Part shown: in pieces, positions 4,969 to 17,422 of the stretch
How positions within the stretch are numbered: position 1 is the stretch's first letter
Layout of the letters: each line of letters starts with the position of its first letter
Assembly (NCBI GenBank): GCA_947259175.1
Contig: CAMYKW010000030.1
Span: 1 to 64,000, forward strand
Length of the DNA stretch: 64,000 bases
Reading direction: 5' to 3'
From: an uncultured Gammaproteobacteria bacterium
GTDB taxonomy: Bacteria; Pseudomonadota; Gammaproteobacteria; Arenicellales; JAANXG01
Position numbers and translations under genes: made by a program
The notes under the pieces: generated by a model
Seen by the model: the letters and a program-made list of their open reading frames with translations, nothing else
Databases searched by the model: none
Told to the model about the DNA's origin: nothing

Positions 4969-5985
4969 TCATTGCCACGGACCGGGGGCAGTCGTTTCAG
5001 TGGTCTTACTGCGGCGTCGAAATATACAAGCTCCCGTCCCTTCACGATGTAAAAAATATACCAATAAACCGCCAACAGAAAAAACAACCACACTCAGAAT
5101 ACGAGCATAAACTGCAATGACCACACCCAAGGCCATACTAGTACCAAGGAACTGAGCATAAAGACCAGTTATAGTTTCAGAAATCCCAAGGTTCGCAGGC
5201 AATATAGCGACGATATTGAGCACAAACTTTGCGGCGGTATAGACAAGCATTGACGATTGTGAAGCTGTCTGACCCACTAAAGAAAACAAATAGAGAAACA
5301 GCATGGCATTTAGCGCAAGGACCAAAACGTTCAAAACTAGCGTAGAAAGACCCGTACGTGCATCGCCTAAAATGGTTTTCATGCCTGAAAAAACAGAAGC
5401 CAGAGTTTTACCCGATATGGAGAACGCAGTCATTTTTTCTGCGTAAAAATGCATTGCTAAATATGGTAAGAAAAACAAACTAATCGAGAAAGTCAGAATT
5501 AGCATGCACGCAATCGTTGCGATCTTCGATACTTCAAAACTTGCAAAGTAAATTCCAACGATTGCAATCACTGAACAAGTTAATAAGCGAAAAGTTTTTT
5601 GCGCGACCATTAGAGCAAGAAAGTTTTCAGGGGTTAAATTGTTCCTGATGGAAAGATAGTAAGCCTTCACTGCTACCCCTGCTTGCATCGGAAAAAGGGA
5701 GCTCACCAAAGAACTAGAAAATCCAATTTTCAGCGCTTCGAGAAGCGTCAATGATATACCGAATGGTTTTACTAACACCTGCGTTAACAAGAATTGGAAA
5801 ACATTTTGCGCCAAAACTAACGCGACCCCTACGCAAATACTTACAACGGAAAATTTGGAGAAAATCTCAACGAAAGTAACCTTGTTCTCCCAAAGAAAAT
5901 AGGCCAAGAATCCAAATACCAACACAAAAAAAAGATTTCGAATCGATTTTATCAATAATTTTTTGTTTTGATTGCTGACTATCAT
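4969..5985 (-). CDS. Lysylphosphatidylglycerol synthase-type / flippase-like membrane protein
   Basis: This 338-residue protein is mostly hydrophobic, with about eight predicted membrane segments. Its layout fits the LPG_synthase_TM (UPF0104) family, often found in polysaccharide loci and proposed, not proven, to act in lipid-linked transport. Family-like features are the VLVKPFGI and LFPMQAGVAVKAYYL segments near residues 71-128 and an ILPANLGISE motif near 258. The ATG at 5985 overlaps the previous stop by 4 bases, and it is the last gene of a tight four-gene operon. Codons are AT-rich compared with the pil genes, suggesting acquisition. Its substrate cannot be read from the sequence. Confidence 0.75.
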   Translation of the reverse strand: MIVSNQNKKLLIKSIRNLFFVLVFGFLAYFLWENKVTFVEIFSKFSVVSICVGVALVLAQNVFQFLLTQVLVKPFGISLTLLEALKIGFSSSLVSSLFPMQAGVAVKAYYLSIRNNLTPENFLALMVAQKTFRLLTCSVIAIVGIYFASFEVSKIATIACMLILTFSISLFFLPYLAMHFYAEKMTAFSISGKTLASVFSGMKTILGDARTGLSTLVLNVLVLALNAMLFLYLFSLVGQTASQSSMLVYTAAKFVLNIVAILPANLGISETITGLYAQFLGTSMALGVVIAVYARILSVVVFSVGGLLVYFLHREGTGACIFRRRSKTTETTAPGPWQ

Positions 5986-7049
5986 AATGCTGTGTCAAAT
6001 TGATCCAGAAATCGTTCTCTAAGACAATTCAAATACCGTGACTTGGCGACTCGCTTCTCCTCGAGAACAGTTCGCGAAGCTGCACAGATATCAGTCGTTT
6101 TAATTACTGACAGTAGGTCCTCACCGCCACTCTTATTCAATACTGGGAATTGTTCTAAGGTATTTAGACGCAACCCGTGAAATAATTGAAAAGTCGGTAT
6201 CCCAAGTGACATTGCGGCGACACATCCATGCAGACGTGTCGATGCAACGAAGTCAAATTGATCATAAATCGCCAACAAATCTTCCCCGCAGTCGGCATAG
6301 TGAACCGGGTAAGAAGAAAAGTGTTCTTTAACGAAAGAGATGTCCTTTTCGGCATGGCAAATGAACTCTATGTTCGAAAAAGTCGATGCAAGCTTGTTGA
6401 TCGACTCCAATATCGGAGTCATTTTCTGTTTCGAAATCAATATATGATTACTATTGAGCGCCTGAAGCGTTATCCCAATTTTGTCTAATTCTTGCTTCGG
6501 TTTGTTTCGTTGCGAAGAAAAAAATGCGGGGCAAGGCAACAACACCGGTGCAAATTCAAGAAATGCATTACGTGTTTGAAAGTCTCTTACCGAAAAAAAA
6601 TCTGTGTTGTTTTGCAAAACGCGCCTTATTTTTGGGCCTGGTTCAGGCAACTTTGAGGAGCCAACACCAATTGCAGAGCACCGTTTACCGGTAGACAACA
6701 AACAATTTAACAACGGATCGTTGGATCGGTCTGACAAACGCAAATGACAACTTCGGAGAGTATGTCTTAGGAAATTGCGACTATTAGAATAATCTGAAAT
6801 TCTCGGAATCTCTTGCCACCATCCTGGAGTGCCTGAAAAAACAATATAGTCAAACTCGTCATAACTACTGTTCAACCAGTCGGTACTGTGTTTTAAATGA
6901 CGGGGGTTACGATCAAAAATTTTCTTATGATAAAGACAACCCAGTTCTTGAAGCAGCGCCTCTATTCCCATGAGAATAATTTCATCACCGGGATTCCATC
7001 CCAACGTAGAAGAAAAAAGAATCGTCTGAAGATCGCTATTATTCAACAA
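5982..7049 (-). CDS. Polysaccharide pyruvyltransferase-family protein
   Basis: The 355-residue soluble protein resembles the PS_pyruv_trans family (CsaB/WcaK-like), which adds pyruvate ketals to cell-surface sugars. Visible signatures are an N-terminal STLGWNPGDEIIL that fits the family's nucleotide-sugar-like fold, GVGSSKLPEPG in the middle, and near the C-terminus FVASTRLHGCVAAMSLGIP, the most diagnostic segment. It overlaps the FkbM gene by 11 bases and the next gene by 4, so expression is coupled. Members may have other substrates; pyruvylation is inferred from family membership. Composition is strongly AT-rich. Confidence 0.75.
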   Translation of the reverse strand: MLNNSDLQTILFSSTLGWNPGDEIILMGIEALLQELGCLYHKKIFDRNPRHLKHSTDWLNSSYDEFDYIVFSGTPGWWQEIPRISDYSNSRNFLRHTLRSCHLRLSDRSNDPLLNCLLSTGKRCSAIGVGSSKLPEPGPKIRRVLQNNTDFFSVRDFQTRNAFLEFAPVLLPCPAFFSSQRNKPKQELDKIGITLQALNSNHILISKQKMTPILESINKLASTFSNIEFICHAEKDISFVKEHFSSYPVHYADCGEDLLAIYDQFDFVASTRLHGCVAAMSLGIPTFQLFHGLRLNTLEQFPVLNKSGGEDLLSVIKTTDICAASRTVLEEKRVAKSRYLNCLRERFLDQFDTAL

Positions 7050-8052
7050 AAACGCCTTCTACTTTGCTCAAGCGTTGCAATGTGGTATTCGCTTTGGAAT
7101 TAGAGAAAATCAAAACATTTTCGCCGTGTGCCAAATCGTTTTCCAAAGAAGACGAACAAATTAAGCGTCCTTCATTTGAAATTGCACGATACTGATATTC
7201 TATTTTCTCTAAGAAACTTCCCAAGTCTTGCACAGATAAATCATAGCGCGACATCCACTTTAGACTACATTCAAAAACGACATTGGGCTGCAATGACTTC
7301 AATAATTTTTCACCTCCTTGTAAGACCTTCAAGTCCGCACCTTCGGCATCAACTTTTATGAGGTCCAATGTGGTTATTCGATGTTGCATTTTTAATGCAT
7401 CCAAACTATGACTCGCAAAAACTGGGTTACTTGCTTTTCCTTTGGGGTCAACGTGACTAAGTGCATGCCCAAGGGCATCGGCCCGAAATGATAGATTTTC
7501 TCCAGCTGCGGACCACATCACAAATGGTTCTATTTCAATTTTTGTCAGCTTATTTTTTTCAACATTGGATTTAAGATATCGGCGAATGAAGTCATTGGGC
7601 TCAATTGCGAGAACGTTACATTGCTTATGGAATGCAGCGTGCAGCGAGTACCATCCCAAATTGGCTCCAACATCGACAAATGAACCATTTTTGGGAATTA
7701 GCTCCAGACAAATCTTGGTTAAAATAGGCTCATAGTTTCCCGAATAAATAGATGGATCGGCTCCCGCACCGTCCACCGCATCCAAATAACGAACACGTAA
7801 TCCCGAATCGATTTCTATCCAAGCGCCCTGCGCATCGAACTCTATTGTTTTACACGCCAGATAGTCCAGGTTCTCTTGCCCGTCTCGAACCCAATCGGTA
7901 ATCCGAAAAAATCGATAGCGATCCGTTGCCAACAATCTGGTAAAAATCCTGCGTGCATACGGCAATCGCTTCGCCCTATCGGCGATCGCTTCTATCAGCA
8001 ATTTGGATTCAGAACTTAATGACTGACGAATCTTTTTCAATTGCTTGAGCAA
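7039..8052 (-). CDS. FkbM-family methyltransferase
   Basis: This is a 337-residue SAM-dependent methyltransferase of the FkbM type, a group that O-methylates sugars or polyketides. Motif I is FVDVGANLGWYS at about residues 125-136, followed by VLAIEPND, and the family-typical LDLIKVDAEGADLKVLQGG is near residue 240. Its start at 8052 lies 44 bases inside the upstream GT9 gene; no later ATG precedes the conserved region. In this operon the target is probably a sugar of the lipopolysaccharide or another surface glycan (inference). Confidence 0.8.
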   Translation of the reverse strand: MLKQLKKIRQSLSSESKLLIEAIADRAKRLPYARRIFTRLLATDRYRFFRITDWVRDGQENLDYLACKTIEFDAQGAWIEIDSGLRVRYLDAVDGAGADPSIYSGNYEPILTKICLELIPKNGSFVDVGANLGWYSLHAAFHKQCNVLAIEPNDFIRRYLKSNVEKNKLTKIEIEPFVMWSAAGENLSFRADALGHALSHVDPKGKASNPVFASHSLDALKMQHRITTLDLIKVDAEGADLKVLQGGEKLLKSLQPNVVFECSLKWMSRYDLSVQDLGSFLEKIEYQYRAISNEGRLICSSSLENDLAHGENVLIFSNSKANTTLQRLSKVEGVFVE

Positions 8053-9082
8053 CCATTTGGGGGGTTAGTTCTCGCATGCATCGGCGATGGTGACATATTA
8101 TGGCGTTAACTGGGTTCTGATCGGCTTTAAAGCACGGGCCGCAAGGCACGTCAACATTAATCGCCTTAGCTCCCAGTAACGCAGATCCCGTTATCTCGGG
8201 ATTCGTCGGACCGTACAAGCAATAGGTTTTCACCCCAAGAACCGCAGCCAAGTTAGTCAAGCCGCTGTCATTTCCAACAACAAATTTTGAGCGAACTAAC
8301 AGCCCCAACGATTGCTCCATGGTGACTTGATTGACAAGATTAAGAACGTTGGAAGATTGTAAATTCGCTAAAATTATATCAGCTTGGTATGCGTCTTCCG
8401 CCCCACCACCCAAGAGTAAAAAATTTTCATTAGGCAATAGATTTATGAGCTCAGCATAATTCTCTGCCGGCCAAAAGCGCCAATCGGACTTGCGCCCGCC
8501 ACCGATTCCGAAAGAAATAAATTCGGATTGGGTCGTCGTGTATTCGGAATCGCGTTGACATTCTTCGACAAAGGCTTTCTCGAACATGTCTACCGGTGAG
8601 TCAACATTGCTGCCTGCATAAGCGCTATGAATCGAAACTTTATCCGATTCTTTGCTAACACTTACAATCTCGTTTATCGCTCGTTTTTGTAAAAAGTTCT
8701 TTTTCGTTGGTAACCCTATTCTTGTGGGGATACCCGACGCAATACTCAGTAGCAAGAAATCTACCTGATTCGAAAGAGAGCTAATCGCAAGTGCAGAGTA
8801 TTTCGGCGACCTTGATATCGTTCTAACCAAACTAAGAATCCTCGGCAAATAGGAAAAAGCTTCTAACCAGCCCTCGGGGCGATGCAGGTAATTCACTTGG
8901 TCAATTAATGGCGTGTTGCGCAGAAGGCGATTGCCTGCGTTTTCATATGGCAAGATTACGTCGATCGAATCGCATCCAAACCGGTTGAGCAACCCCGGTA
9001 AAGAAGGCCAAATGAAACACCAATCTCCTATTCCAGAAGGACCAAAGTACAAAAGCTTTTTAGTCGGTGCTGTTTGACCCAT
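8009..9082 (-). CDS. Glycosyltransferase family 9 (heptosyltransferase-like)
   Basis: The 357-residue protein has the two-domain GT-B layout of ADP-heptose:LPS heptosyltransferases. The N-terminal FGPSGIGDWCFIWPSLPGL corresponds to the acceptor-side glycine loop. The C-terminal FVVGNDSGLTNLAAVLGVK followed by CLYGPTNP matches the donor-binding signature of GT9. It is the first gene of the AT-rich four-gene operon, starting at ATG 9082. An LPS-core or O-glycan sugar transfer is inferred; the exact sugar is not determinable. A CGPCFK segment and CHHRRCM near the end resemble the cysteine-rich tails of some GT9 members. Confidence 0.85.
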   Translation of the reverse strand: MGQTAPTKKLLYFGPSGIGDWCFIWPSLPGLLNRFGCDSIDVILPYENAGNRLLRNTPLIDQVNYLHRPEGWLEAFSYLPRILSLVRTISRSPKYSALAISSLSNQVDFLLLSIASGIPTRIGLPTKKNFLQKRAINEIVSVSKESDKVSIHSAYAGSNVDSPVDMFEKAFVEECQRDSEYTTTQSEFISFGIGGGRKSDWRFWPAENYAELINLLPNENFLLLGGGAEDAYQADIILANLQSSNVLNLVNQVTMEQSLGLLVRSKFVVGNDSGLTNLAAVLGVKTYCLYGPTNPEITGSALLGAKAINVDVPCGPCFKADQNPVNAIICHHRRCMRELTPQMVAQAIEKDSSVIKF

Positions 9083-12650: not shown

Positions 12651-13715
12651 CTAACGACCTTCAGATTCTTGAAACGCCGAGAGCGGTTCTGGAAACGTTT
12701 CTATGCACTTAGCAACGAAGGCTGCAACGTCAATCGTCTCGCGAAGCAGTTGTTGATTTGCGTCGATATAGCTCTCAACTGAACTGTTCAAGAGTTCATC
12801 AATCAATTCGCTTAGTTGCGGCCAGTGCAATTGTCTTAGATTGCGCACCAGACCATATCTTCTCTCTTGTTCGTTCGTGTAACCACGGCCGGTCTTAGCC
12901 GCGTAAACGGCCGGCACGCCAAGTACGGCGCTCTCCGATGCCATCGTGGCGCTTTCTCCGATATATGCGCGACAAAAAGCCATCACGTGATGAACGTCTT
13001 TCTTGGAACCCTGATAGCCATACGGTTTCATTTCGTCCGTAAGGGGAGACTCGGCCGAGATCAGTACTTTCCCCTTACTTGAAAGCTTGTGAACGAGTTT
13101 TGAAAGCAGATCGTTCTTCCATCCTCGCTCACCAATATCGTGGTTGGCTTGCCAGGAAACCAATCGCACAAGAAATGTATCGCTATTTTCAGCAAGGCCG
13201 TTACGTACCGCCACTTCTCTGTCGGGTGAAAAGTAATCAGGATGCAGATATGAGAGTTCATGATAGCCGGGGTAGCGGATGTGTCGTCGTCTGGGTAACC
13301 ATGCCTCGTAACATTGAGGAACGACTACCGCGGATGCGAACGGGTAGGTAACCGCATTTTGAAGAGTTGCGTTTTCTGTGTCGTAGAAAACCAGAGAAGG
13401 TATACGTGCAAGTGCGCCCACCTGAGCTATGCTTACACCGCCGATTGCCGCCATGATATCGGGCTTTTCGCGCCGGATCACCTTCCACAATGCCAGATTT
13501 CGCCTTATTAACTCGCTCGCCAAAGAGACGATACCGCCCTTGCCCATTGCTGAAAGCGGATTATGCGTTAGTCCCAATTCGTCGAGGAGCTCCAGGGCGA
13601 ATTCCTTGTTTCGGCTCGTTATAATTATTCGGTGCCCACGATCGGCGAGGAGTCGAATAGGCTGGCGAAAAAAATGAACATGGGCGGGATGGCCGATATC
13701 AATCAATACTTTCAT
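12651..13715 (-). CDS. DUF354-family GT-B-like protein
   Basis: The 354-residue protein starts MKVLIDIGHPAHVHFFR, the signature start of DUF354, a family with a UDP-GlcNAc 2-epimerase/GT-B-like fold common in archaeal and bacterial glycan loci. Other family segments are IAQVGALARIPSLVFYDTE and an ESATMASESAVLGVPAVY donor-site-like stretch near residue 255. It probably handles nucleotide-sugar substrates; the reaction is unknown. It is the first gene of the DUF354-asnB-toroid transcript, with ATG 13715 preceded by a 278-base gap holding a possible promoter. Confidence 0.8.
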   Translation of the reverse strand: MKVLIDIGHPAHVHFFRQPIRLLADRGHRIIITSRNKEFALELLDELGLTHNPLSAMGKGGIVSLASELIRRNLALWKVIRREKPDIMAAIGGVSIAQVGALARIPSLVFYDTENATLQNAVTYPFASAVVVPQCYEAWLPRRRHIRYPGYHELSYLHPDYFSPDREVAVRNGLAENSDTFLVRLVSWQANHDIGERGWKNDLLSKLVHKLSSKGKVLISAESPLTDEMKPYGYQGSKKDVHHVMAFCRAYIGESATMASESAVLGVPAVYAAKTGRGYTNEQERRYGLVRNLRQLHWPQLSELIDELLNSSVESYIDANQQLLRETIDVAAFVAKCIETFPEPLSAFQESEGR

Positions 13716-13781
13716 CGCCGGCCGTCGAACAGCAAATAGAATCTTTCCTTAGTTTCGTTGGAAAATCTCTGCATTTGGATA

Positions 13782-13787
13782 ATTGTA
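13782..13787 (-). promoter_or_regulatory. Possible -10 element for the DUF354-asnB operon
   Basis: Read on the minus strand the hexamer is TACAAT, about 67 bases upstream of ATG 13715, in a locally AT-rich stretch with TATTGAATTG upstream acting as a weak -35 candidate. The rest of the 13716-13993 gap shows no gene. Confidence 0.35.
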
Positions 13788-13993
13788 GATTAGAAAAAAA
13801 CAATTCAATACTTTTCGTTAGAAACCTAACTGCCGGTGCGAGGTAGCGACAGGCGGTATAGACATAGTGTATCAAGGCAGCAACGCTTCAATGGTTCATC
13901 GATGATAGCGATACGATCGCCTCATGGATGTAGCGCGTTGAATTGATTTTATTCCTTCGCAAACAGACCGCCACCTTTGCGCTCAATTCAAAT

Positions 13994-14822
13994 TTAAGAG
14001 TCAGTATGTCGCCGCCTCTCTTCCGAATTTCGATAATGCAAGGAGGACACCTGCTCAGAAAGCACACCGATCAAGAAAATAATCAGTGAAGAAACATATA
14101 GTAATGCGCTCATATTAGTGAATCGCGAGTCACTTATGTAGGTGTAGCCGTAATAGGCGGTGGCGATCGCAAACAAGGCGATGCTTATAGGAAGGAACAG
14201 AAATACGGATGTTGCTTCGAGATTCTGTGTTTCGTTGTTTTGCATCTATCGGCACGTAAGCTACCGCATAACCGTTTCGGAAAAACGCCATGGTGCTCGT
14301 CGTAGGATATGAGAATCGGTTCGGCAATAAATACAAGAAATTCTTGAATGCCTTCGCCCGAACGGCGCGAAATCCGGAGGTAAGATCCTCGATATGATAG
14401 CCGGTCATCAGGCTCGCGAGTCGATTGAAGCCGGTATTGGCTAGTAAGCGACTGAAGGATGCCTGGGTCTTCGTGGAGCGGGATCCAACAACCATGTCGT
14501 AGCCGGCGTCGATCTTCGCCAACAACCTGGCTATATCCGTGGCCGAGTGTTGACCATCGGCATCCATAAACACCAGCACCTCGCCGGAGGCCATGCGGGC
14601 GCCGCTCTTGATCGCCGCGCCGTTTCCGATGTTGTAAGGATGGTTAATCAGCGTCACACCCTCGATAGAAGGAATCTCGGGAGAGGAACCATCATCGACG
14701 ACGATGACTTGCGCTTCCGGATACAAATCTTGAATTTTTTTACACAGCGGACCGATAGTGGCTTGTTCATTGAAGCACGGCAGAATTATACTCAGAGAAT
14801 ACCGGGCGCTTTTGTTTGTCAT
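13994..14822 (-). pseudogene. Glycosyltransferase family 2 (polyprenyl-phosphate sugar synthase type), split by deletion and frameshift
   Basis: Frame 1 (14822 to about 14215) encodes a DPM1-like GT2 domain: IILPCFNEQATIG, VIVVDDGSS, MDADGQHSATD, GFRAVRAKAF and YVPIDAKQR. It then runs into unrelated residues and stops at 14130. The family's membrane-anchored tail, FLFLPISIALF through FTNMSALL and FLIGVLSEQV, is encoded in another frame (14245-13994). Compared with the usual arrangement, about 20 residues joining the halves (the LLRDG...SPL segment) are missing and the frame changes at about 14215-14225. As written it cannot produce a full enzyme, though the catalytic half could be translated. 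Its start overlaps the GT-C gene by 4 bases. Confidence 0.8.
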
Positions 14823-16756
14823 CGTGCTGCGGCTCCCTCACGTTGAGATAGTTGGCGGTCCAAGACCCTTTCCCAGCTTGCCAAAGCCTCCGAGTCAATG
14901 CTGATTTTTGCGACGGAATATTGATTCGCGTTTTTGGCCCGTGACAACGCGTTCTTGGATTCCTCCCAGTTACCAGCCGCCGCCCAAAAACGCGACTCGA
15001 GCAGTGCATAACTCATCTGTGAGTTATGACTAAATGCATTTCTCAACGCTTCGGCCGCGCGGTGGTAGTCGTTTAAGTGCTTGTGTATTTTCGACTCTAC
15101 TACATAGAGATTTGCGGTGCGTGTTCCTTGATTTTGATAGGCTGGATTTGCTTGCAGGCTCTTTACCAAGAAGAGCGTGTCCTTCGGTGTTATCGTAACG
15201 CAACGAGTTTCCATTTGTTTTCTAAGCATGAAATCCAGAGTCTGCGTGGCTGCCGTGTCGTAATCCGAATTTGATATTCGCGAGCCCAATAATTCGACTT
15301 CGGGTTTAGTTAAGTTCTGCCCATTCAGGCAACCTACCACTGCGAGTTGTAACTGAGGGCTGGCGTGGTCGGGTCTGATTGCCGCGGTATTGTTTAAGAA
15401 TTTCTCGGTTTGTTTAAAGTTACCATATAACATCCACACACTAGCGGCATTTTGTTGAGCGCGGTAGGACCCGGGATGCTCCAGCGCCCAGACTGTTGCC
15501 AATTCCAGCGGGGTACCCCACAAGTTGGCGGCTCGGGACGTGGTAACCGTAACGAGTATGCCGAAGATGAACAAGGTCGCTTTTAGAAATTTCGATAGAT
15601 CGCTGCGATTGGTGAACACAAGATAAGCGGCTGCAAGCAGTATTCCGTACATCGCCAAATAGTTGCGGTGTTCGAAATAGATTTCTAACGGAAAAATTGT
15701 TGATTCTAGAAGGTGGCTGACTAAGAACCAGACGATTGCGAAGCTCACCATCGGGACACGGTATCGCACCATGAACGCGATCAATCCCAGGACGATTAGG
15801 CTGACTATAGACAAGATGGTGGACGGTGGATCCACCAAAGATCGTGAGATGACGTAATCATCGTGGAAAACACCAGTACCTTGGCGCACGGGAACAACAA
15901 TATTTCCGAGGTAATCAAACAGGACACGGCTCTCGGTCATCAATCTCTCCACCAGCGTGAAGGACCGCGATTCAAATCCTGATTGAATAGACGGTATTTG
16001 CCAACTCAGCCAGCATACGAAGACTGTAATGGGCAGGTAGAGAAATACCGACGCCCACAAGGTCCATTTGGGCGGTAATTTGACGTTCGCGTTGCGTAGA
16101 ATCAGAAATTCAATAGCCAGCGCGAAAAGAAGAATCAGTATTCCGTTCTCCTTGCTCAAGGTTGCCAGAGCGCCTGCTATCACGATCCCGCCCGTCATCA
16201 ACAGGTAACCGGTCTTCACGTTTCTAGAGGCGATTACCCTTCCATAGCTGTAGGCAAGCAACCCCAGTATGATGAATAGCATGGAAAGCTGCGCCATTCT
16301 CTGTACGACATAAAGAGTTGTCGAGACATTAAAGGGATGCAACAACCAGATTCCCGCGGTCGCGACAGCAATGGTTTGGTTTACATGCTCTTGGTGCTTA
16401 TTCATCACCCGGCACAACACTAAACTGAGCCATGCGATACTCAGTCCAGTGAGCAGGTGCAGCAGCACGTTGGTCCGTTTAAACCGATACGGTCTGGATG
16501 GCCAAGTGTTGTCGTCGAGAAAGAACGACGCAAGCGATACCGGTCGCCCCAACGTGCCAGCCGTACCGCTGAGCACGTACCGGTACGCGTCTCCGAGGTT
16601 ATGTACGGTCTGCATACCCTGCAGTGCTGGCGCATCATCCAAAAGGAAAGAACCCCGCAACCCGGGGTTGTATACCCACCACGTCAGAACAAGTAGGATG
16701 ATTAGCGCCCCGGACGGGGCGAATACCAGGATCTTGTCTTTGGAAAGAATCTTCAA
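14819..16756 (-). CDS. Polytopic GT-C-like glycosyltransferase with C-terminal repeat domain (candidate pilin modifier)
   Basis: The protein has 645 residues. The first 420 hold roughly a dozen membrane segments, and the last 220 look helical and TPR-like. A loop after the first helix has FLLDDAPALQ and then LGRPVSLASFFLDD, and a LHPFNVSTTLYVVQRMAQLS stretch follows. These resemble TMTC/DUF1736-type GT-C enzymes that use lipid-linked sugars. It lies immediately downstream of pilA and is followed, with a 4-base overlap, by a polyprenyl-phosphate-sugar-synthase-type GT2. This context suggests pilin glycosylation at the periplasmic face (inference). Its -24 to +78 neighbourhood includes the pilA terminator, so expression likely depends on read-through. 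Confidence 0.7.
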   Translation of the reverse strand: MKILSKDKILVFAPSGALIILLVLTWWVYNPGLRGSFLLDDAPALQGMQTVHNLGDAYRYVLSGTAGTLGRPVSLASFFLDDNTWPSRPYRFKRTNVLLHLLTGLSIAWLSLVLCRVMNKHQEHVNQTIAVATAGIWLLHPFNVSTTLYVVQRMAQLSMLFIILGLLAYSYGRVIASRNVKTGYLLMTGGIVIAGALATLSKENGILILLFALAIEFLILRNANVKLPPKWTLWASVFLYLPITVFVCWLSWQIPSIQSGFESRSFTLVERLMTESRVLFDYLGNIVVPVRQGTGVFHDDYVISRSLVDPPSTILSIVSLIVLGLIAFMVRYRVPMVSFAIVWFLVSHLLESTIFPLEIYFEHRNYLAMYGILLAAAYLVFTNRSDLSKFLKATLFIFGILVTVTTSRAANLWGTPLELATVWALEHPGSYRAQQNAASVWMLYGNFKQTEKFLNNTAAIRPDHASPQLQLAVVGCLNGQNLTKPEVELLGSRISNSDYDTAATQTLDFMLRKQMETRCVTITPKDTLFLVKSLQANPAYQNQGTRTANLYVVESKIHKHLNDYHRAAEALRNAFSHNSQMSYALLESRFWAAAGNWEESKNALSRAKNANQYSVAKISIDSEALASWERVLDRQLSQREGAAAR

Positions 16757-16776: not shown

Positions 16777-16802
16777 AAAAGACCCCGGCCGAAACCGGGG
16801 TC
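16777..16802 (-). terminator. Intrinsic terminator/attenuator after pilA
   Basis: On the minus strand GACCCCGG and CCGGGGTC pair around a 6-base loop (16781-16802), followed directly by TTTT. It lies between pilA (stop at 16834) and the downstream GT-C gene (start 16756), so it should cap the abundant pilA mRNA while letting some transcripts continue. Confidence 0.85.
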
Positions 16803-16833: not shown

Positions 16834-17256
16834 TTACTGGCGGCACTCCGGCGGTACATACCGTTCTGCGATCGAAACCGCGTCGCAGGTGAAATTGACC
16901 GATCCGGCGTTCGTGTTCGGAGTCAGGGTCAGCGTATCGTTGCCAATCTTTGATTCCGCGGTGTTGTACGTGATGGTGATGACGCCGCTGGTCCCAACTT
17001 GAACGGACAAGGTGTAATCACCGGTTATATCGGTGCCGGTGGCAATTCCCGCTTGCGTGTTGTTTGTCGGTAAGTCGCTTGTAGAAACGTAGTATTCGGC
17101 GACACCGGTTTTAGCGGGGGCCGCCAAGGCCAAGCCTTCCGATACCTTCGCGCGGATGGTGTAGTCCTGGTAAGCCGGGATCGCGATCGCGGCCAGGATG
17201 CCGATGATCGCTACCACGATCATCAGTTCGATCAAAGTAAAACCACGTTGTTTCAT
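16834..17256 (-). CDS. pilA: Major type IVa pilin
   Basis: PilA is the structural subunit of the type IV pilus. The 140-residue prepilin starts MKQRG, with cleavage before [16 protein letters not shown]; Glu5 of the mature protein is present. A C-terminal disulfide loop is formed by the cysteines in FTCDAV and PPECRQ. The mature globular domain is rich in Thr and Asn ([15 protein letters not shown]), possible glycan sites. ATG 17256 is chosen because AGGAGAT lies 7 bases upstream and the leader is then standard. A sigma-54 promoter lies at 17423-17438 and a strong terminator follows the gene. Confidence 0.95.
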
Positions 17257-17422
17257 CGTTACATCTCCTAAAATGCTTGGTGTTACACACCGGTTATCTG
17301 AAATCAAAAGTCACCTCAAATTAAAAGGAACAGCGGCCGGGTCCTTGGCCGCGGGTTCCGTTCCACCCCAGACATCCCCACTGAGCCAGCGATGATCTTT
17401 TTGCTGCGACTGCCTGTAGCGC

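Follow-up and report, generated by a model that had tools for sequence, protein, structure and literature searches.

Pilin-accessory cassettes of Pseudomonas aeruginosa are defined by an accessory gene situated after pilA, with a Rho-independent terminator between the two; the accessory enzymes TfpO and TfpW glycosylate the pilin, and the terminator tunes the accessory gene, according to PMC11841053, which also cites a reference whose title calls TfpW a GT-C enzyme. A GT-C membrane domain followed by TPR repeats is described for the human TMTC O-mannosyltransferases (PMC7801869). Among polyprenyl-phosphate sugar synthases, Synechocystis GtrB (PDB 5EKE/5EKP and 9NYF) and ArnC comprise a GT-A domain, a juxtamembrane helix and two transmembrane (TM) helices. 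The JM2 helix of GtrB extends TM1 at its N terminus, and activity is abolished by changes at nine conserved residues of the juxtamembrane region, residues that human DPM1 conserves as well (PMC4728340). Pyrococcus furiosus DPMS (PfDPMS; 5MLZ) has four TM helices, and its interface helices are strictly required, whereas its TM domain is expendable (PMC5526996). In the human DPM1/DPM2/DPM3 enzyme, the catalytic chain and a small two-helix chain are encoded on separate reading frames.

The locus studied here belongs to an uncultured Gammaproteobacteria bacterium and lies within positions 1 to 64,000 of contig CAMYKW010000030.1 (assembly GCA_947259175.1), a stretch of 64,000 nucleotides hereafter termed the window. 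Its layout is that of the TfpO and TfpW cassettes: an accessory gene stands right after pilA, with a terminator-like hairpin between them, and its product adopts a GT-C fold in the predicted model. In contrast to TfpO and TfpW, this accessory enzyme consists of a GT-C domain with a TPR tail and is followed by its own GT2 gene, whose start codon overlaps the stop codon of the GT-C gene (14819-14822). Going upstream from GT2, the order is the GT-C/TPR gene, the hairpin, pilA, pilR and pilS. The features are listed below; L009, L010 and L011 are the loci of the closest relatives among the matches listed.

16834..17307, minus strand: pilA, major type IV pilin (Pilin PF00114, E 6e-25, plus N_methyl)
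16781..16802, minus strand: terminator-like hairpin separating pilA from the GT-C gene (hairpin scan; stem also in L009 and L124)
14819..16756, minus strand: intact membrane glycosyltransferase of 645 residues, with predicted GT-C (about 3-440) and TPR (about 496-645) regions (structure model, TPR_19)
14202..14822, minus strand: catalytic GT-A domain of GT2, in the family frame for residues 1-207 (PF00535; 80-82% identical to L009-L011)
14200..14201, minus strand: deletion junction (65 bases of three relatives, L009 codons 208-229, missing; profile pieces abut)
14130..14201, minus strand: last part of the first ORF, frameshifted and comprising residues 208-230 and stop, with no homology to the family (ORF list; alignment with relatives)
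13994..14200, minus strand: GT2 membrane tail in another frame, family residues 230-297, with two predicted TM helices, SEQV motif and stop (ORFs, alignment, profile; TM helices from the L009 model)

The pilA-GT-C-GT2 cassette

Translation of pilA probably starts at the ATG of an 11-residue leader (letters not shown) within the listed ORF. The hairpin scan of the region returned 7 such sites against 4.3 expected from shuffled sequences; at the same place between pilA and the GT-C gene, a near-identical stem lies at 4042-4063 of L009 and a similar one at 5959-5982 (minus strand) of L124. A GC-rich hairpin with a T run was present there in all three scanned loci, the window included.

Neither Pfam nor NCBIfam assigned a glycosyltransferase family to the GT-C/TPR protein, whose TPR_19 match (E 7e-5) falls just below the curated cut-off, and a PDB sequence search gave no match up to E 0.1. 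Its structure model (pLDDT 89.9) was aligned by VIA-align with 8age_A, a yeast oligosaccharyltransferase chain that we take to be STT3 (Z 18.5, rmsd 4.7, 326 aligned), with Pmt4 (Z 17.2) and with ArnT (Z 15.9), TPR domains reaching Z 13.7; Foldseek alone ranks TPR proteins first, and the GT-C match comes from VIA-align, which re-aligns only Foldseek's top chains. The predicted arrangement, a GT-C membrane domain and then TPR repeats, resembles that of the TMTC enzymes. In contrast to these, the protein is bacterial, its function is predicted, and it showed no Pfam match to DUF1736 at E up to 0.1, a search that could miss distant members.

A homologue search with GT2 gave at least 577 matches, of which the best 80 were kept. 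Within these 80, 67 homologues had more than 2500 bases of upstream sequence: a GT-C homologue stood just upstream in 38 of them, was preceded by a pilin gene in 32, and was absent just upstream in 29. Where more than 4500 bases were present (55 homologues), the GT-C gene was found in 28, pilA together with the GT-C gene in 25, and pilR as well in 9. Named examples with pilA, the GT-C gene and GT2 in sequence include the loci of Ottowia thiooxydans DSM 14619 (L023) and Zhongshania aquimaris (L050). The pilA-GT-C-GT2 order is therefore common, not universal, for this GT2 family, which is not tied to pilin glycosylation alone, since 29/67 members lack the GT-C gene just upstream. A fixed pilS-pilR-pilA-GT-C-GT2 block was rejected as a general rule, pilR accompanying pilA and the GT-C gene in only 9/55. 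The preliminary description had linked the gene to pilin or LPS sugars; the link to pilin is supported by the gene order around the hairpin and its recurrence in 32/67 homologues. That to LPS found no direct support, though a heptosyltransferase-family gene in the next cluster (8009-9082) and the 29/67 homologues with no GT-C gene just upstream keep an LPS-type role conceivable.

Homology between the window and the L009-L011 loci stops at the GT2 stop codon. In L009 a GT4 gene (6897-8132) starts 2 bases after GT2, and L010 and L011 are alike; the window lacks it. No GT4 remnant was found at 13690-14010 of the window, nor a close copy in its own genome, where the best match is 30%. Loss of GT4 as the cause of the break is unsupported, since G007 and G008, genomes from other genera of the family, likewise show no GT4 match in about 3 kb after GT2. 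A DUF354 gene (12651-13715, minus strand) was found at E 1e-20 in only one of six genomes of the genus, the organism's own, so species differ in the sugar cluster that lies beyond the cassette. A PADLOC search with three proteins gave no match.

The 65-base deletion and the predicted juxtamembrane helix

The minus-strand interval 13994-14822, correctly delimited in the preliminary description according to the ORF list, holds a single GT2 gene spread over two reading frames. The first, catalytic ORF (14130-14822, minus strand; 230 codons and a stop) matches Glycos_transf_2 (PF00535, E 2e-26) and contains a DXD motif (MDADGQH). The second (13994-14245, minus strand) has 83 codons and its own ATG at 14245, shares 116 bases with the first, and matched no Pfam or NCBIfam family above its cut-off. 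The family frame is kept for residues 1-207 (14822-14202), and the last 68 residues (14200-13997) lie in another frame. The catalytic part is 81-84% identical to L009-L011 over the first 199 residues; the 68 tail residues are 89.7% identical to L009, a match that is not due to chance.

Aligned with L009, L010 and L011, the window shows a gap of exactly 65 bases against each, with the junction at 14200/14201 and placements as far as 14206 equally or almost equally good. Furthermore, a whole-genome search of the organism's own genome with a profile built from 25 intact relatives splits GT2 into abutting pieces, profile positions 1-200 at 14202-14798 and 223-286 at 14009-14200. The alignment and the profile search confirm the internal deletion and frameshift first proposed for this DPM1/GtrB-type GT2, and the estimate of around 20 residues, or 60-70 bases, agrees with the 65 bases (codons 208-229) found missing. 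Two positions need correcting: the ORF does stop at 14130, as described, while homology continues some 10 codons beyond VPIDAKQR, the assigned catalytic end, to residue 207 (14202), and the break lies at 14200/14201 rather than at 14210-14230. A repeat-mediated deletion was considered and gained no support, the window showing no repeat at the junction, although direct repeats behind such an event would by now be reduced to a single copy.

An AlphaFold2 model of the intact L009 protein (pLDDT 84.2, 25 sequences) predicts a GT-A domain, a helix at 207-225 and TM helices at 227-253 and 258-296. Since the 65 bases correspond to codons 208-229, which encode most of the predicted helix plus its turn, the deletion removes helix and turn and puts the TM pair out of frame. 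The lost stretch had been regarded as connecting residues; it is indeed missing, and it amounts to more than a connector, being the predicted juxtamembrane helix before the TM pair. By its place in the model this helix would correspond to JM2 of GtrB, with which the sequence alignment is weak in this region. The L009 model matches GtrB, ArnC and PfDPMS with Foldseek E values down to 4e-17 and TM-scores of 0.5-0.7, the latter indicating that the domains are placed somewhat differently. All three are whole-chain structural matches: GtrB and ArnC match L009 over nearly its full length, and the fold shared with PfDPMS takes in the catalytic domain, the interface helix and the first TM pair (5mlz: Z 25.1, rmsd 5.3, 272 aligned). 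Over the catalytic part, there are matches to glucosyl-3-phosphoglycerate synthases as well. The window copy, at about 20% identity to GtrB and ArnC, retains the GT2 domain and the DXD motif; unlike them, it has neither the second juxtamembrane helix nor in-frame TM helices, and the helix it loses is one that PfDPMS needs. Given the absence of codons 208-229, we class it as a broken former member of the GtrB/DPMS type. The enzyme is most likely inactive; the first ORF retains its DXD motif and could keep some activity if anchored by another protein.

L009-L011 (80-82% identity) each carry one unbroken 297-residue gene, and 79 of the best 80 homologues run through in a single frame, the remaining one, L044, being still in frame at its contig end. 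Of the 79, 78 read directly through to the SEQ motif of the tail; L052, whose match starts ahead of an in-frame stop, also reaches it. G007 and G008 have unbroken GT2 copies behind pilA and the GT-C gene. Within the genus, a GT2 match at E 1e-40 was found in 4/6 genomes, the organism's own included. The misses in G001 and G002 were discarded as evidence of loss, as they are uninformative: in G001 the locus breaks off some 100 bases past pilA, and the completeness of G002 is 74%.

Probable loss of the donor step and alternative readings

From fold and gene order we infer the following chain of steps. The intact GT2, acting at the cytoplasmic face, would transfer one sugar from a nucleotide sugar to a polyprenyl phosphate, which is probably undecaprenyl phosphate; the sugar-lipid would then be flipped, and the GT-C enzyme would pass the sugar to pilin. 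In this scheme, the intact GT2 was probably the source of the sugar-lipid used to glycosylate pilin. In the truncated enzyme lacking the juxtamembrane helix, the lipid phosphate should not reach the active site; the dedicated donor would not be made, and the pilin would be left unglycosylated or decorated from another donor. We hold with good confidence that a polyprenyl-phosphate sugar synthase of the GtrB/DPMS type, part of a pilin-accessory cassette, has recently lost its function through this deletion. Pilin glycosylation in this bacterium would then be lost or altered, as initially suggested.

Compatible with this deletion, and a possibility we rate below even chances, is that another GT2 supplies the polyprenyl-phosphate sugar, so that pilin is still glycosylated, be it with the same sugar or a different one. 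An intact 311-residue GT2 resembling a polyprenyl-phosphate sugar synthase, at G000:C1:160294-161226 (L002; the C1 GT2), covering profile positions 2-270 of 287, adjoins a methyltransferase and a GtrA_DPMS_TM protein. Moreover, the GT-C gene is intact and its dN/dS is not raised (0.11-0.13 between the window and relatives against 0.17-0.19 among relatives, more distant pairs tending to lower ratios), so the GT-C enzyme may still be used with another donor. However, a very recent break would leave the GT-C gene looking constrained anyway. The C1 GT2 is also found in G003 and G005 (3/7 searched genomes, the organism's own included), and since both keep an intact cassette GT2, it did not arise as a replacement. 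The G005 copy of the C1 GT2 contains one in-frame TGA.

For the tail, dN/dS is 0.04-0.08 between the window and relatives and 0.07-0.08 among relatives; for the catalytic part, the corresponding values are 0.06-0.07 and 0.11-0.14, all rough estimates, with dS near saturation (up to 2) and a ratio that tends to be lower for more distant pairs. Residues changed in the window alone number 5 of 63 for the tail and 16 of 199 for the catalytic part, 8% in both, which by a hand estimate allows no more than about 0.04 neutral substitutions per site. A tail without relaxed selection implies, on these rough comparisons, either a recent break or an assembly error, in which case the deletion never occurred in the cells. 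The second option, an assembly artefact or population mixture in which living cells carry a full GT2 and the contig dropped 65 bases, appears improbable. The genome is in 121 contigs, and the undecayed tail is also what a gene left intact throughout would show. However, the neighbouring genes pilS, pilR, pilA and GT-C align without breaks over almost their whole length, a clean 65-base gap is atypical of sequencing error, and the window shows no repeat at the junction, though collapsed repeats would leave a single copy.

A genuine deletion might still leave a two-chain enzyme resembling human DPM1, in which the first ORF would supply a soluble chain for catalysis and the 83-residue ORF a membrane subunit of two helices, a reading to which we give very little credence. 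In its favour, the second ORF carries an ATG and matches DPM2/DPM3 in size (80-90 residues, two helices; PMC5526996), and the tail is undecayed. Unlike the human enzyme, however, both chains would lack the juxtamembrane helix that is strictly required in PfDPMS, and the 83-residue product is only predicted. In type II DPMS, the catalytic chain keeps its juxtamembrane helices alongside a small TM subunit; here the second helix is in neither ORF. Furthermore, no Shine-Dalgarno-like sequence is visible before 14245, and the arrangement occurs in none of the 79 relatives readable to the end among the best 80 of at least 577. Programmed frameshifting fusing both frames across their 116-base overlap is still harder to credit, as the product would lack about 22 codons, i.e. 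the helix, and the relatives need no shift. Both readings were rejected, since neither frame contains the missing codons: with interface helices strictly required and the TM domain expendable in PfDPMS, neither frameshifting nor two chains restores what the deletion took away.

Implications for the organism and the GT2 family

As a recent deletion, the broken GT2 is a tidy but ordinary case of gene loss. It removes nearly just the juxtamembrane helix and leaves the catalytic domain, so that the window copy and its intact relatives together provide a natural means of testing the published claim that the helix cannot be dispensed with. In the open-licence literature searched, no description of a pilA-terminator-GT-C/TPR-GT2 cassette was found. 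A broader and speculative reading, for which we see rather long odds, is that a widespread cassette of pilA, terminator, TMTC-like GT-C/TPR enzyme and dedicated synthase has here had its donor step switched off by the deletion, and that the transfer enzyme, still under selection, takes another synthase's sugar; this would amount to a natural switch of pilus glycan, perhaps selected by phages that bind pili. The cassette is a more interesting by-product of this analysis than the broken gene itself, and it offers a testable pathway by which many Gammaproteobacteria and some Betaproteobacteria may glycosylate their pilin.
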